Source: a virus. From it: a stretch of 20,839 nucleotides of DNA. Shown piece by piece: positions 13,523-20,101 of the stretch. A model generated the notes under the pieces. That model saw only the letters and a program-made list of their open reading frames with translations, made no database searches and was not told the origin of the DNA. Position numbers and translations under genes: made by a program. The DNA lies in the IMG/VR virus record IMGVR_UViG_3300032241_002371, positions 1 to 20,839 of that record; one strand, written 5' to 3'. Position 1 is the first letter of the stretch. Each line of letters begins with the position of its first letter.

Positions 13523-13539
13523 ATACAAGAGACTTGTAT
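13523..13539 (+). promoter_or_regulatory. Hairpin covering the ribosome site and start codon of the GIY-YIG endonuclease
   Basis: ATACAAG (13523-13529) pairs with CTTGTAT (13533-13539) around AGA. The 3' arm includes the first two bases of the ATG at 13538, and the loop region holds the likely ribosome site AAGAGA. Transcripts reading in from gp32 would contain the full hairpin. Confidence 0.65.
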
Positions 13540-14288
13540 GCAAATATATTATGTCTATGCCTATCTCAGAAGGTCAAATGGGACTCCGTATTATATCGGT
13601 AAAGGAAAAAAATAATAGAGTATTTGAATCTCATGGTAGGATATCCGTTCCAAAAAATCGTAATTATATTGTAATGCTTGAACAAAATTTAACCAACGTA
13701 GGAGCATGTGCAATAGAACGTAGAATGATTAGATGGTACGGTCGCAAAGATTTAGGTACAGGAATATTATTAAACTTAACCGACGGTGGTGAAGGGTTAA
13801 GCAACCCCGGGCCTTCGACTAGAGAACAAATGAAAGAAAATATCCGCAATGGAGTAACAGGAATGAAAAATAAATCTCATTCCGAAAAAACTTTGCAGAA
13901 AATGAGTAATTCTGCTAAATCTCGAGGATTTACCGAAGAACATTTGAATGCGATAAGATTATCAAATTCAAAACGAAAAGGTAGAAAAGAGGATCCGGAA
14001 GTTGGTAAAAAAAGAGGAGAGGCAATAAGTAAGGCTAAAAAAGGAAAATCAAACGGCCATGTCGGTTTAAAAAGGTCCGAAGAAACTAAGAGAAGAATGA
14101 AAGAATCTCAAAAGCACTTGTCGGAAATGAAGGCTCAAACAATGAGAAAAACAATGACCGGTCGTGTAAAAACCCTAGAGGAAAAAGCCAAAATTAGTGC
14201 CTCTTTAAAGGGCAAACCTTGGAGTGAAGCAAGAAGAGCCGCACAAATTAAGAAAAAGGAAGAAAAAAATGGCAAATCGTCCATTTGA
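13538..14288 (+). CDS. GIY-YIG homing endonuclease with NUMOD3 repeats, broken by a frameshift
   Basis: Free-standing homing endonuclease of the T4 Seg/I-TevI kind, which cuts alleles lacking the gene so that it is copied in by repair. From 13538 the frame reads MQIYYVYAYLRRSNGTPYYIGKGKK and stops at 13613. The rest (NNRVFESHGR onward) is in the +1 frame and continues to 14288. Removing one A from the A7 run at 13606-13612 joins them into a normal YYIGKGKNNRVFE. Remaining catalytic signs are R of NNRVF, E of ACAIERRMIRWYGR and N of ILLNLTDGGEG. Then come NUMOD3 DNA-binding repeats (KSHSEKTLQKMSNSAKS; GLKRSEETKRRMKES; a third near LEEKAKISASLKGKPWSE). A start at 13551 would lack the GIY-YIG core. 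The 3' end overlaps uvsX by 20 bases. Either a real pseudogene, a sequencing error, or slippage-dependent expression. Confidence 0.85.
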
Positions 14289-16148: not shown

Positions 16149-17339
16149 ATGATTTACATAGAAGATATTATTTCTAAGATTTACAGATCACCTAACAGAG
16201 TGTTCAACCTATGGGATAATAAAATTATTGATAGTTTCTACTACCAAATTCTCGATGGTTTCTCATTAACGGAAAAACAAGCCGCATTGGCCGTTAAAAT
16301 CTTAAAAAAACATAATAAAATAATTTCTAAAATTTTTATGCAAGATGTAACAAATGATTTGGAATCTCCTAACTTTAAATTAGGGATTAGAAAAATTGTT
16401 TCTTTGAAGAAAATTGAAATTATTAAGGATAATGTGTATGGCAAGGTCGCTCGAGCTATTTTTCCATATAACGAAAATATAATTAAAAAAATTAGGGATA
16501 ATAAAGAAAAATTTGGATTTGCAATGTGGGATAAAGAGGCAAAATGTTGGAATTTTCCTCTAAACGAAAATTTTATTAAGTTTCTCAGTGAGTTGTCTAA
16601 TGAAATGTTCTTTGACACAGATGACGAATTTAAACAGTTAGAACAACAAATAAAAAATATTATCAATGATATGGAAAAATATGCCCCAATTTTGGCATAC
16701 GAAGACAATCACTTCAAAATTATTAATTCTCCATACATCAATTTAGATTTGAAGAACGCAACACTACTAGAGGCAATCTTTGAGGCAAGAAAATATGGAA
16801 TAACTACTTGGGATTCAACCATCGAGGACATGATTCAAAATTCAAATATTGACCATATTACAAAATTATTTTTGAAAACAGATCCAAAGGAAAAAATTTC
16901 CATTAATAATCAATATGCAGAAATTTCTTGTCTATCGAATATCGTAAAATATTTGAGTCCTTGCCTTATAATTATACCTGGCGGTGATGAATTACAAATT
17001 CTATCAAACACACACAAATTTTTATCTGAACAGAATTTTAAAAATGAGGAAATTAGTGTAATGTTTAGATTACCCAGTGACTCTTATAAACAATTCAATG
17101 AATTTGTTAAGGATAACCATTTGAATTCACCGGTGAACGAAAAAACAAAAATTGTTTTTATCAGTGGAAAATTACCTAAACCCATGATAAAATCAAATAT
17201 TAAATTTAATAGTATTATTAATTTTGGACTACACAACCCACACTTTTCTATGCGAGACTATATTACACATCATGAAAATTGTGTGATATTTTCTAACGGT
17301 AGAACTCATAAGGATAACGCAATTGTCCAAGTCATGTAA
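16149..17339 (+). CDS. Hypothetical protein with possible HARP-like segment, between uvsY and uvsW
   Basis: 396 residues, not firmly recognised. Residues about 40-55 read FSLTEKQAALAVKILKKHNK, like the ends of helicase accessory helices. Residues about 102-145 (ARAIFPYNENIIKKIRDNK, then KEAKCWNFPLNENFIKFL) resemble the HARP domain of SMARCAL1-type annealing helicases: F-x-Y, helix, then W-x-F-P-L and helix. The C-terminal half (YLSPCLIIIPGGDELQILS, KTKIVFISGKL, SIINFGLHNP) looks like a Rossmann or RecA-type fold without a Walker A motif, so a degenerate helicase half is possible. Its setting suggests a role with UvsW in fork remodelling; this is inference. It is richer in Lys and Asn than its neighbours. 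The uvsW start overlaps its last 17 bases. Confidence 0.75.
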   Translation: MIYIEDIISKIYRSPNRVFNLWDNKIIDSFYYQILDGFSLTEKQAALAVKILKKHNKIISKIFMQDVTNDLESPNFKLGIRKIVSLKKIEIIKDNVYGKVARAIFPYNENIIKKIRDNKEKFGFAMWDKEAKCWNFPLNENFIKFLSELSNEMFFDTDDEFKQLEQQIKNIINDMEKYAPILAYEDNHFKIINSPYINLDLKNATLLEAIFEARKYGITTWDSTIEDMIQNSNIDHITKLFLKTDPKEKISINNQYAEISCLSNIVKYLSPCLIIIPGGDELQILSNTHKFLSEQNFKNEEISVMFRLPSDSYKQFNEFVKDNHLNSPVNEKTKIVFISGKLPKPMIKSNIKFNSIINFGLHNPHFSMRDYITHHENCVIFSNGRTHKDNAIVQVM

Positions 17340-18348
17340 AGTCGTTATCAAGGATGAAGTGAATGTTAAGATTGAAAACCTCGATCTTGACACAAGAAAG
17401 TTCTTGGTCCGTAAATTTAAGTACGAAGACCCCTCTGCTAGGTTCAGACCTTCATATAAATTAGGTCGATGGGATGGTACAGTGAGTTTTTTCGGTCTCG
17501 GTGGTACTACCTATCTTTCCATGCTACCACAGGTCTTGGAATACCTTGAAGAAAAAAATTATTATATCGAGCTTGAGGATCATAGAAACCCCACTGACCT
17601 AAAATTTGACGAAATTTCCGAGGATTTTTGGGGTGATAGAACTTGGCCTAAGGGTCATAGGTTCGAAGGACAACCCATTAGACTGAGAGATGATCAAGTC
17701 GAGGTTATTAATAAATTTTTAATCAATCCTCAATGTATTCAGGAAATCTCTACCGGTTTTGGGAAAACCATTACCACCGCAACTTTAGCGAAAATTTGCG
17801 AAAAATATGGTAGAACCATTACCATCGTACCTAACAAATCTTTGGTCGAACAAACCGAAGAAGATTTTATTAATTGCGGGCTCGATGTTGGTGTTTACTA
17901 CGGAGATAGAAAAGAGCTGGGTCATACACATACGATTTGTACATGGCAAAGTTTGAACATTTTAGATAAAAAATCCAAAGATTTTGATGTTGATCCAGAA
18001 ATGTTAACACTGGCAGAATTGTTAGAAGCTGTGCAATGTGTTATGGTAGATGAATGTTTTTCCGGTGATAGTAAAGTATTAACTGCCAACGGTTACAAAG
18101 CAATTAAAGATATACAAACAGGTGATGAAATCATAAACTATTCCGAAGATACACAAAAATTCAAAGTAGATACTGTAATTAAACAACATAAAAATTTAAC
18201 AAAGTCACTCAGTGAAAAAATGTATGAAATGGAATTTGATAATGGATCTAAAATACAAGTGTCGGGAAATCATAAGTTTTTAACTAATTTAGGATGGGTA
18301 CGTGCCGATGAGTTAACAAATGACCATGAAATTATAAATAACACATAA
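17323..18348 (+). CDS. uvsW: UvsW helicase N-terminal part fused to N-terminal split-intein domain
   Basis: UvsW is an SF2 helicase that unwinds R-loops, regresses forks and migrates branches. The start is TTG at 17323, with AAGGA eight bases upstream. Residues 1-60 form the UvsW N-domain (RKFLVRKFKYEDPSARFRPSYKLGRWDGTVSF, close in pattern to T4). Walker A is STGFGKT at 143-149, and motif Ia-like IVPNKSLVEQTEEDF follows. Residue 244 is the Glu of VMVDE; then the intein begins at Cys245 (CFSGDSKVLTANG) and runs 97 residues to a TAA at 18346. Host sequence resumes only at 19370 with CHMAKAD, completing the DECH motif. This half alone lacks the C-terminal helicase motifs, so it must be trans-spliced to be active. 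Confidence 0.92.
   Translation: MSKSCKVVIKDEVNVKIENLDLDTRKFLVRKFKYEDPSARFRPSYKLGRWDGTVSFFGLGGTTYLSMLPQVLEYLEEKNYYIELEDHRNPTDLKFDEISEDFWGDRTWPKGHRFEGQPIRLRDDQVEVINKFLINPQCIQEISTGFGKTITTATLAKICEKYGRTITIVPNKSLVEQTEEDFINCGLDVGVYYGDRKELGHTHTICTWQSLNILDKKSKDFDVDPEMLTLAELLEAVQCVMVDECFSGDSKVLTANGYKAIKDIQTGDEIINYSEDTQKFKVDTVIKQHKNLTKSLSEKMYEMEFDNGSKIQVSGNHKFLTNLGWVRADELTNDHEIINNT
18055..18345 (+). other. N-terminal split-intein domain (97 residues)
   Basis: Block A is CFSGDSKVLTANGYKAIKDI with catalytic Cys1. Block B is QVSGNHKFL, with the essential His and Ser in place of the usual Thr of the TxxH motif. The rest has the HINT fold pattern (TGDEIINY; MYEMEFDNGSKIQVSG; LGWVRADEL). The length is close to the N-part of cyanobacterial DnaE split inteins (about 102 residues). 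Confidence 0.9.
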
Positions 18349-18351
18349 ATA
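18333..18351 (+). promoter_or_regulatory. Two late promoter boxes for the intein-associated endonuclease
   Basis: TATAAATA at 18333-18340 is an exact T4 late box, and CATAAATA at 18344-18351 is a near match. The second contains the TAA stop codon of the upstream uvsW part. Starts are predicted at about 18346 and 18357; the latter transcript lacks the 5' arm of the hairpin that covers the endonuclease start codon. Confidence 0.65.
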
Positions 18352-18378
18352 CATATAACTAAAGCAGAAGTATTTATG
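18344..18378 (+). promoter_or_regulatory. Hairpin hiding the start codon of the intein-associated endonuclease
   Basis: CATAAATAC (18344-18352) is a perfect 9-base match to GTATTTATG (18370-18378), whose last three bases are the endonuclease ATG. The loop is 17 bases. Only transcripts coming from the uvsW promoter side carry both arms. Confidence 0.65.
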
Positions 18379-19296
18379 AAAAAAACAAATCAACAAATAA
18401 TAGATGAACTCAATGAGAGTTTGAAAAAAAATAATCAAGAAACTCGTGTTATAAAATATTCTAGTGATACCATATCGTTGGCTAACGGAACAATCTTAAA
18501 TGATAAAGAAAAGTCTCGTTTTGTTAAACGAGTAAAAAATACTAAAACAAATTTATGGGTCAAACAAATAGATAACCTGTTATCTGGAAAAATTACTGAA
18601 AAGGAAATCAAATCTAAATTAGCATCAATTGGTGGCAACTCCGTACAAAAAAAATATGGACATATTATCAAACAAAATCTTAATACAGGTAAACCCTGGA
18701 ACGCTGGTACCAAGGGACAACGTATAGGCACGTTAGGTCCACGAGATCAAAAAGTTAAGGATAAAATTAGTGAGAAGAATTCTGGCGCCGGTAACGGAAT
18801 GTACGGAATTAGAATGTCAGATGATTCTAAAAAAATGAGATCTAATTTAATGAAGAAAAAAATACTATTTGGAGAATTTACTCCAAATAGTAACAATAGA
18901 AATACCCACTGGGATTCCACTTTTAATGGTGAAAAATATAGATCAAGCTGGGAAGCCTTATATCAATACATCAATCAAACTGCTGACTATGAAAAATTAA
19001 GAATTGAATATACATTTAATGGAGATACAAAAATTTACATAGTTGATTTTGTAGATCATATAAACAAACAAGTTATAGAAGTTAAACCAAAAGAGTTATG
19101 CACCGGGAAAAAATTTCAAGCAAAACTGTCAGCATTATCTAAATGGGCAACTGCGCACAACTATACAATAACGATAGTTGATAAACAATGGTTACAGAGT
19201 CAGTTAGTAGAAATTGATTATACAAAATTTGATGATAATACTGCAAAAAAAATAAAGGCTCTATATGAAATTAATAAAAAAAATAGAAATAAGTAA
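18376..19296 (+). CDS. Free-standing homing endonuclease with gp4/TnsA-like nuclease domain, between split-intein halves
   Basis: 306 residues. The N-terminal 80 residues are helical and basic. A DNA-binding middle has NTGKPWNAGTKG at about 103-114 and NGMYGIRMSDDSKKMRSNLMKKK near 140-162, the look of NUMOD-type repeats. The C-terminal nuclease has KYRSSWEAL (E193), YIVDF (D224) and QVIEVKP (E235, K237), a PD-(D/E)XK set in the same order and wording as the gp4 gene at 5828 (YRSGWE, YVPDF, EVIEIKP). It probably cuts intein-less uvsW alleles and drives spread of the insertion. It is in the same frame as the upstream uvsW part, one stop codon away, and its 3' end overlaps the downstream part by 32 bases in another frame. 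A hairpin lies inside at 18863-18892. Confidence 0.85.
   Translation: MKKTNQQIIDELNESLKKNNQETRVIKYSSDTISLANGTILNDKEKSRFVKRVKNTKTNLWVKQIDNLLSGKITEKEIKSKLASIGGNSVQKKYGHIIKQNLNTGKPWNAGTKGQRIGTLGPRDQKVKDKISEKNSGAGNGMYGIRMSDDSKKMRSNLMKKKILFGEFTPNSNNRNTHWDSTFNGEKYRSSWEALYQYINQTADYEKLRIEYTFNGDTKIYIVDFVDHINKQVIEVKPKELCTGKKFQAKLSALSKWATAHNYTITIVDKQWLQSQLVEIDYTKFDDNTAKKIKALYEINKKNRNK
18863..18892 (+). repeat. Perfect 12-bp inverted repeat inside the endonuclease gene
   Basis: TACTATTTGGAG (18863-18874) and CTCCAAATAGTA (18881-18892) around AATTTA. It falls in the linker between the DNA-binding repeats and the nuclease domain. There is no T tract after it, so it is not a standard terminator. Confidence 0.9.
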
Positions 19297-19369
19297 ACCA
19301 AAAGAAGTATATAATTTACATATTAAGGACGATCACAACTACATTGTAGAGGGCGCAGTAGTAGCCAAT
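19265..19369 (+). other. C-terminal split-intein domain (35 residues)
   Basis: Block F is VYNLHIKDDHNYIVEG, with the His of DHNY, and block G is AVVAN followed by Cys+1. The penultimate residue is Ala rather than His, as in DnaE-type split inteins, which have Ser there. The length matches the roughly 35-residue C-parts of natural split inteins. Confidence 0.92.
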
Positions 19370-20101
19370 TGCCATATGGCCAAGGCTGACGTACTGAAAA
19401 ATCTATTAACTCGTAATTTGGCCAGTGCACCTATTAGATGGGGATTGACCGGTACTGTTCCTAAACAAGACCATGAATTTCAAAGCATTAGAGCTGCACT
19501 TGGTGAAGTTGTACATAGGGTCTTTGCTCATGAACTTCAAGAAAAAGGTGTGCTGTCCGACTGCCATGTACAAGTCGTACAAACTGCTGAATACAGAGAA
19601 TTTGGCAGCTATGCGGAAGAATTAAAATATTTGGTAACCGATAAAAATCGCATGGAATATGTTGCAAAGCTTATTAAAAATATAGTAAAATCAGGTAACA
19701 CTTTAATTCTTGTAGATAGAATCGAAAGTGGTGAATTCCTTGTAGAAAATATCCCCGACAGTGTATTCATATCCGGCAAAGTGAAAACCAAAGATCGTAA
19801 AGAAGAATATGATGAAATTAAAACTGCTGATAACAAGATTATTGTGGCGACTTATGGTGTGGCCGCTGTGGGTATTAATATTCCAAGGATTTTTAATCTG
19901 GTTCTTCTTGAACCCGGAAAAAGCTTTGTTCGTGTTATACAGTCTATTGGACGGGGTATTAGGAGAGCTGAAGATAAAGACTTTGTACAAATCTGGGATA
20001 TCACCGCAGCCACAAAATACGCCAAAAGACATCTCACGGAACGAAAACGCTACTATAAGGAAGCGAAATATCCTTTTACAATCGAAAAAGTGAAATATTA
20101 A
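19265..20101 (+). CDS. uvsW: C-terminal split-intein domain fused to UvsW helicase C-terminal part
   Basis: 278 residues. ATG at 19265 has AAAGG six bases upstream, inside the 3' end of the endonuclease gene. Residues 1-35 are the C-terminal intein domain ending in Asn35. The UvsW C-extein starts at Cys36 (CHMAKADVLKNLL, second half of the DECH motif) and has motif III GLTGT, a second RecA domain with LILVDRIESGE, motif V ATYGVAAVGINIPR and motif VI QSIGRGIRR. The C-terminal residues (KRHLTERKRYYKEAKYPFTIEKV) match the UvsW end. Joining 244 N-extein and 243 C-extein residues gives 487, close to T4 UvsW (about 503). It has its own start and ribosome site, so it can be made separately and trans-spliced. 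Confidence 0.92.
   Translation: MKLIKKIEISKPKEVYNLHIKDDHNYIVEGAVVANCHMAKADVLKNLLTRNLASAPIRWGLTGTVPKQDHEFQSIRAALGEVVHRVFAHELQEKGVLSDCHVQVVQTAEYREFGSYAEELKYLVTDKNRMEYVAKLIKNIVKSGNTLILVDRIESGEFLVENIPDSVFISGKVKTKDRKEEYDEIKTADNKIIVATYGVAAVGINIPRIFNLVLLEPGKSFVRVIQSIGRGIRRAEDKDFVQIWDITAATKYAKRHLTERKRYYKEAKYPFTIEKVKY

Follow-up and report, generated by a model that had tools for sequence, protein, structure and literature searches.

A probable mobile split-intein cassette with a TnsA-like nuclease in the Walker B box of a phage uvsW gene, and its apparent decay and re-fusion

In some conserved DNA enzymes, mainly of phages, the gene is reportedly interrupted by the two halves of a split intein, which flank a free-standing endonuclease gene; the nuclease in the cases that Dassa et al. 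described in 2009 is said to be of a Vsr-like kind. Such fractured genes form a described class, for which Dassa 2009 is cited in PMC10448857 and PMC7891396. The AceL NrdHF split intein belongs to a phage fractured gene with a GIY-YIG endonuclease between the halves (PMC7891396), and the MIJ3 PolB split intein has an HNH endonuclease in that position (PMC6892783). For the T4 nuclease I-TevI, expression is controlled by a late promoter together with a hairpin at the start site (PMC2988022). Here we analyze IMG/VR virus record IMGVR_UViG_3300032241_002371 (20,839 nucleotides, referred to in full as the window), in which uvsW, the gene for a DNA-repair helicase, is split within its Walker B box by the two halves of an intein and a nuclease gene lies between them. 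We consider it highly probable that this is a mobile fractured-gene cassette, trans-spliced, equipped with a late-switched homing nuclease and subject to decay and re-fusion.

Two open reading frames (ORFs) carry the parts of uvsW (Table 1). The upstream ORF (17323-18348) holds 244 UvsW residues and the 97-residue N-terminal intein half (IntN), then a stop; the downstream ORF (19265-20101) holds the C-terminal intein half (IntC) and 243 UvsW residues, and it begins at its own ATG within the nuclease gene. The joined exteins amount to 487 aa and read VMVDE/CHMAK (the slash marks the insertion point), which places the break between Asp-Glu and Cys-His of the Walker B box. A sequence-only reading had proposed an N-half ending VMVDE before an intein start with Cys1, blocks A and B and a stop, a C-half whose intein ends in Asn before CHMAKAD, a 306-residue endonuclease gene between the two, and a DE/CH box restored with Cys as the +1 residue. 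Coordinates and family models agree with all of this, blocks A and B reading CFSGDSKVLT and SGNHKFLT; we add the 32-nt overlap of the C-half with the nuclease gene and correct one block detail, as block G ends VVAN and not in the usual HN. The intein parts score above the cut-offs of Pfam Intein_splicing (40.1 bits against 35.8), TIGR01445 intein_Nterm (41.4 against 24.5) and, for the C-half, TIGR01443 intein_Cterm (22.2 against 15.6).

The PDB matches to IntN are the DnaB and NrdJ-1 inteins. The helicase halves match the ResIII/DEAD and Helicase_C family models, and the best PDB match of both is T4 UvsW (phmmer: 1rif/2oca for the N-half; 2oca, 4.9e-17, for the C-half). A UvsW-type N-terminal domain and helicase domains 1 and 2 are all recognized, the N-extein being UvsW_N-like at 22.3 bits, below the Pfam cut-off for UvsW_N. 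It is sound to infer that UvsW would have no helicase activity before trans-splicing, because the motifs lie on two polypeptides. Each of the three ORFs is spanned by an existing PHROGs family (16259, 22417 and 9690), which means that reference phages already contained this organization without comment.

Table 1. Features of the split uvsW locus (window coordinates).
Feature	Position	Strand	Details
UvsW N-extein	17323..18054	+	244 aa, TTG start, ends VMVDE; Pfam ResIII 45.3 bits
IntN	18055..18348	+	97 aa + stop; Cys1; TIGR01445 2.2e-10, Pfam Intein_splicing 4.2e-10
Late-promoter-like element CATAAATAC	18344..18352	+	overlaps IntN stop codon; hairpin 5' arm
GTATTTATG, hairpin 3' arm (9-bp stem)	18370..18378	+	includes nuclease start codon
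Homing-type endonuclease (putative)	18376..19296	+	306 aa; N-terminal NUMOD3-like DNA-binding part and C-terminal TnsA-like PD-(D/E)XK domain
IntC	19265..19369	+	35 aa, MKLIKK...HNYIVEGAVVAN, ends VVAN; TIGR01443 22.2 bits
UvsW C-extein	19370..20101	+	243 aa, begins CHMAKAD; Pfam Helicase_C 5.1e-09

The residues expected of a class 1 intein are in place: Cys1, a block B of TxxH type (SxxH in the window), a C-terminal Asn and Cys at +1. Across 36 distinct alleles, IntC has ATG at residue 1, Asn as its last residue and Cys at +1 without exception, and Cys1 and the NH[KR] of block B are kept as well. The ratio of nonsynonymous to synonymous substitution rates (dN/dS) could be computed for part of the data and lies at 0.13-0.31 in IntN, 0.05-0.08 in IntC and 0.13-0.19 in the nuclease; judged from these ratios, both intein halves and the nuclease are under purifying selection. 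AlphaFold2 (AF2) models of naturally fused alleles show a HINT fold (predicted local distance difference test score, pLDDT, 88) with Z 18.9 to the NpuDnaB intein over 132 of 139 residues and Z 17 to gp41-1. Together, the residues and the models suggest that the two halves trans-splice into a 487-residue UvsW. Two features of the window count against this: the penultimate intein residue is Ala in place of the usual His, and block B has Ser (SxxH) where relatives have Thr (TxxH), so splicing could be slow. A penultimate His in block G is usual in class 1 inteins, not universal. The 36 distinct alleles end SN (20), AN (14) or EN (2), His never occurring in the window's clade, and the inteins of the cultured phages S16 and PM2 end HN.

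The missing block G His also fits an explanation in which the UvsW halves form a helicase of two subunits and nothing but inactive remnants is left of the intein. Function in pieces is on record for a phage gene that a homing endonuclease has split (compare Aeh1 nrdA, split by mobE), as cited in PMC10448857. For uvsW we regard such a gene in pieces as very unlikely, given the invariance of Cys1, NHKF, the terminal Asn and the +1 Cys and the strong constraint on IntC. Moreover, in-frame re-fused alleles keep every splice residue, and dead intein ends in these alleles would block the Walker B box.

IMG/VR was searched with the nuclease and the UvsW C-half, which yielded 152 loci in which extein, intein and nuclease pieces were mapped; loci are cited by L numbers throughout. 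The DE/C break with both intein halves and the nuclease is present in 63 of them, the window included. The same arrangement occurs in three phages in culture (Salmonella S16 and SEA1, Proteus PM2), where the annotation gives two helicase genes flanking a hypothetical protein. To the sequence-only reading uvsW was not a known host of fractured genes; the case is already in GenBank in these three phages, unremarked. In the literature covered, which did not extend to the host-gene list of Dassa 2009, no paper was found that describes it, that reports a split intein in uvsW, or that links TnsA to a homing nuclease of inteins.

With 63 contigs and several isolate genomes showing the same split, it is not an assembly error. 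The concern, which a single metagenomic contig naturally raises, was that misassembly or a recent insertion had put the nuclease gene into a continuous intein or uvsW gene and that trans-splicing does not take place; continuous alleles had been named as its sign, and three exist (L285, L245 and L232). These are, however, distinct alleles without a nuclease and not errors. With both halves under purifying selection, an ATG of its own in IntC throughout, and split halves that persist after nuclease loss in about 12 alleles, this explanation is scarcely credible. Placement among fractured genes, also proposed from the sequence, is borne out by the family models, the HINT fold of the natural fused alleles and dozens of independent loci.

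Intein-free relatives, which the sequence-only reading had advised seeking, number 79 at the same point. Their junction reads DEVH in 78 cases and DECH in one (L151), and every intein-bearing allele has Cys at +1 (36/36 distinct alleles), so the Cys codon probably travels with the cassette. The IntN of S16 is 60.6% identical to that of the window, and the intein-bearing UvsW half of SEA1 and PM2 is 33.5% identical overall; the high likeness of IntN despite the diverged UvsW points to horizontal spread.

More direct signs of mobility come from L069. Between L069 and the window the intein is identical at 283/285 and 105/105 nt and the nuclease tail at 231/231, whereas the exteins are mostly 60-90% identical, their 60-nt blocks agreeing at 37-55/60. 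The blocks that flank the insertion agree at 53/60 and 55/60, the pattern expected from co-conversion of a short tract. Judged from this near-identical cassette in diverged exteins, copying is recent and probably by homing. In UvsW, the intein-free L074 and the intein-bearing L069 are equally close to the window, and intein presence is patchy on the UvsW tree, with at least 6 changes in a sampling biased by the queries.

Profile searches with the intein halves, and measurement of the gap between them, gave a series of alleles. A full nuclease corresponds to a gap of 908-977 nt. The nuclease is truncated in L231 (349 nt), L206/L210 (300 nt) and L069/L162 (195 nt), relics are left in L248 (92 nt), L180 (60 nt), L271 (58 nt), L294 (57 nt), L265 (24 nt) and L177 (20 nt), and almost no gap is left in L179 (10 nt), L199 (8 nt) and L172 (3 nt). 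All of these reduced alleles are still split. The three continuous alleles are fused, in-frame cis-inteins; in L285 the uvsW ORF is complete and its cis intein measures 130 aa. In L232, 38 of 45 nt of linker DNA are identical to the nuclease tail of L004, in the nuclease's own frame with its stop, and this relic is out of frame with the intein. As its linker holds a nuclease relic, the fused L232 allele descends from a fractured one, and among the three fused alleles the direction from split to fused is evident in L232 alone. On an intein tree of 130 columns, too few to give firm support to single branchings, alleles that are fused or have no nuclease do not group apart from those with a nuclease but are dispersed among them (12 changes, against a mean of 13.4 after shuffling).

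In an alignment of 31 nuclease homologues, E193, D224 and E235 are invariant and K237 is kept in at least 90%. Pfam TnsA-like_N is matched by 24 of the 31 (best 2.8e-10) and NUMOD3 by 19 (1.7e-9). The AF2 model of the window's nuclease (pLDDT 85) has TnsA (1t0f) as its best fold match (Z 8.0, root-mean-square deviation 3.2 over 117 residues), with lower scores for Vsr (Z 5.7) and I-Bth0305I (Z 5.4); no Vsr family match was obtained by sequence. We read the protein as a probable homing-type enzyme composed of a NUMOD3 part and a TnsA-like PD-(D/E)XK domain, closest kinship to Vsr or I-Bth0305I being less likely. This assignment is tempered by the scores of the window's nuclease alone, which lie below both Pfam cut-offs so that the assignment runs via family members, and by the Z of 8.0, a level where chance folds can appear, backed here by the Pfam matches in relatives. 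A PDB sequence search with the nuclease profile gave no match up to E 10, and a search for relatives in bacterial and archaeal genomes confirmed none.

The same nuclease family lies between split-intein halves in terL (HY03, phiR1-RT and PspYZU05, at YIDE/CA) and in the clamp-loader gene gp44 (L066-L068, at LLDE/CD), and the uvsW, terL and gp44 insertions are all at Walker B DE/C. The gp44, S16 and terL nucleases have instead Cys-rich, zinc-finger-like N-terminal parts, as read from sequence. Alternatively, the gene might encode no homing enzyme at all but a phage nuclease that was domesticated, such as one related to the gp4 head-completion nuclease, and that landed in an intein. Its catalytic domain does resemble the phage's own gp4/head-closure nucleases (phrog_218), and its viral-model matches are the PM2 and PspYZU05 homologues and head-completion nucleases. 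Nonetheless, we find this origin unlikely in view of the NUMOD3 DNA-binding motif, the recurrence of the family between intein halves in three genes, the near-identical cassettes in diverged genes, and the frequent decay of the nuclease while the intein stays.

The split intein at LLDE/CD of gp44 with this nuclease family occurs in L073 as well as in L066, L067 and L068, and an additional intein of L066 matches LAGLIDADG weakly. In L160 (1460-3211; Shigella phage JK32) the terL N-half, IntN and TnsA-like nuclease form one long ORF and IntC with the terL C-half a second, so that the nuclease is fused to an intein half and not free-standing.

The leader of the nuclease gene may hold an expression switch. 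The element CATAAATAC is the reverse complement of GTATTTATG at the nuclease start and contains TAAATA, a late-promoter core, at 18346-18351. The pattern [CT]ATAA[AG]TAC occurs in 63/63 nuclease leaders, where its phase with respect to the IntN reading frame takes two values, and has no occurrence in 517 kb of intein-free loci; in the window, TAAATA lies 5-60 nt upstream of 9 of 16 gene starts, against 0.9 expected. Read-through RNA folds into a 9-bp stem (-9.0 kcal/mol) with the start codon unpaired at 0.00, and RNA from a T4-type late start (about 18357) is without the 5' arm, with a computed value of 0.79 for the unpaired start codon. The leaders of L032 and L034 keep a hairpin with a different stem. 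An I-TevI-like late-promoter and hairpin switch inside the split intein is well motivated by these data, if unproved, and the nuclease would then be expressed late only, as for I-TevI.

Three observations speak against such a switch. Several leaders pair imperfectly; the S16/PM2 and terL cassette leaders have no TAAATA within 60 nt; and covariation of the hairpin, sought in the leaders, gave no compensatory changes. Since the promoter fixes the sequence of one arm and the start codon that of the other, the hairpin is supported by conservation and position only. The leader motif could instead be an AT-rich sequence present by coincidence or an operator, given that operators of the I-TevI type overlap promoters too (PMC2988022), and both the lack of covariation and the cultured S16/PM2 cassettes without the element would fit. 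We give this alternative an appreciable but clearly smaller chance: the motif is universal in the 63 loci in two phases and missing from intein-free DNA, TAAATA marks gene starts in the window, and L032 and L034 retain a hairpin while the stem differs. Hairpins near the nuclease start are also folded by the gp44 leaders of L068 and L073. By eye, a strong GC stem (GCGGCC..GGCCGC) lies in the first nuclease codons of S16 (L155, 2639-2690) and PM2 (L154, 2588-2640), perhaps another translational brake on the nuclease.

In the mechanism that we propose, the N-half (helicase domain 1 and IntN) and the C-half (IntC and helicase domain 2) would be made as two proteins. From the conserved residues and the fold, the intein halves are expected to associate, form a HINT domain and trans-splice, leaving UvsW with an intact DECH box. 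We infer that the nuclease most likely cuts intein-free uvsW at the DE/(C or V)H codons, upon which recombination would copy the whole cassette into the cut gene; the intein would hide the nuclease site and spare the host gene. On read-through mRNA the nuclease is probably silent, its start codon hidden by the hairpin, and it would be made late, as in T4 I-TevI, from the promoter within the 5' arm on a transcript without that arm. Over time the split intein would often outlast its nuclease, lost by deletion, and in some cases its halves would re-fuse into an ordinary cis intein.

The uvsW gene is a crowded homing target. T4 segE is also located at inh/uvsW (PMC2988022). In S16 a free-standing GIY-YIG-like homing endonuclease gene (L155, 1030-1665) lies just upstream of the fractured uvsW, and in PM2 a NUMOD/HNH-like gene (L154, 4343-5053) lies just downstream. 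A second split intein sits in the Walker A box (GAGK/T) of uvsW in L008 (441-2984), L010, L036, L038, L040 and L059 and, by search, in L294, L237 and L175. It has its own unrelated nuclease gene, with a weak DUF559 match only, and an atypical split (IntN of 27-39 aa, IntC of about 135 aa). A doubly split uvsW would give a helicase in three pieces needing two trans-splicing events. In L064 (1-2022), the Walker B box is fractured and the intein in the Walker A box is continuous and far larger (LAGLIDADG-like by eye), so that one gene has two inteins of different organization.

Elsewhere in the window, a 396-aa ORF (16149-17339) immediately upstream of uvsW overlaps it and has no convincing family match in the family-model and PHROGs comparison; related pieces occur upstream of uvsW in some loci. 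Between gp32 and uvsX, a GIY-YIG/NUMOD3 homing endonuclease gene (13537-14288) has a frameshift at seven consecutive A, reading MQIYYVYAYLRRSNGTPYYIGKGKK to a stop and continuing in another frame; it may be a pseudogene, a programmed shift or a sequencing error.

The question at stake is by what routes split inteins and broken genes originate, how they are maintained and how they are repaired. At one site in natural phages we find the gene empty, split with a nuclease, split with a decaying or absent nuclease, and re-fused, with one relic marking direction, so that the origin and repair of broken genes become directly testable in an allele series. We consider about as likely as not the broader proposal that the uvsW DE/CH site displays a full split-intein life cycle, in which the intein arrives split, the nuclease erodes and the halves re-fuse, and that the TnsA-like family specializes on Walker B DE/C sites of several ATPases. 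Split inteins are usually held to arise from continuous ones; if the proposal is true, some ordinary inteins can derive from split ones, reversing that view. For bench work, a 35-aa IntC, an unusual block G and naturally fused partners make a convenient split-intein set.

To the known systems the locus contributes a host gene broken at a helicase active site, together with a family of TnsA-like homing-type nucleases met repeatedly at DE/C Walker B sites, in uvsW, terL and gp44. The Dassa 2009 cases, among whose host genes uvsW with its DE/CH site is not known to be, reportedly differ from it in their nuclease, here NUMOD3 with a TnsA-like PD-(D/E)XK domain, and in the nuclease-less and re-fused alleles at the same site. 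TnsA of Tn7 and gp4-like head-completion nucleases share the catalytic fold and E..D..ExK residues with the window's nuclease but not its fusion to a NUMOD3 DNA-binding part or its homing-type context. The AceL IntN, at 98 aa, is close in length to the window's 97 aa, although AceL is a class 3 intein (PMC7891396) and the window's is class 1 (Cys1), with a 35-aa IntC and a TnsA-like nuclease. The uvsW loci of S16, SEA1, STP4-a and PM2 (GenBank) have the same gene and DE/CH site, an IntN about 57-61% identical and a nuclease of the same family (36-40%), with UvsW only about a third identical; unlike the window, their IntC ends LAHN and the nuclease start overlaps the IntN end, without a late-promoter hairpin. 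As with T4 I-TevI, the window's nuclease lies inside an earlier transcription unit, with a hairpin on read-through RNA and a late RNA that would be without the 5' arm (PMC2988022); unlike I-TevI, it sits in a split intein, its hairpin hides mainly the start codon and to a lesser extent the ribosome-binding site, and the promoter itself is the 5' arm.

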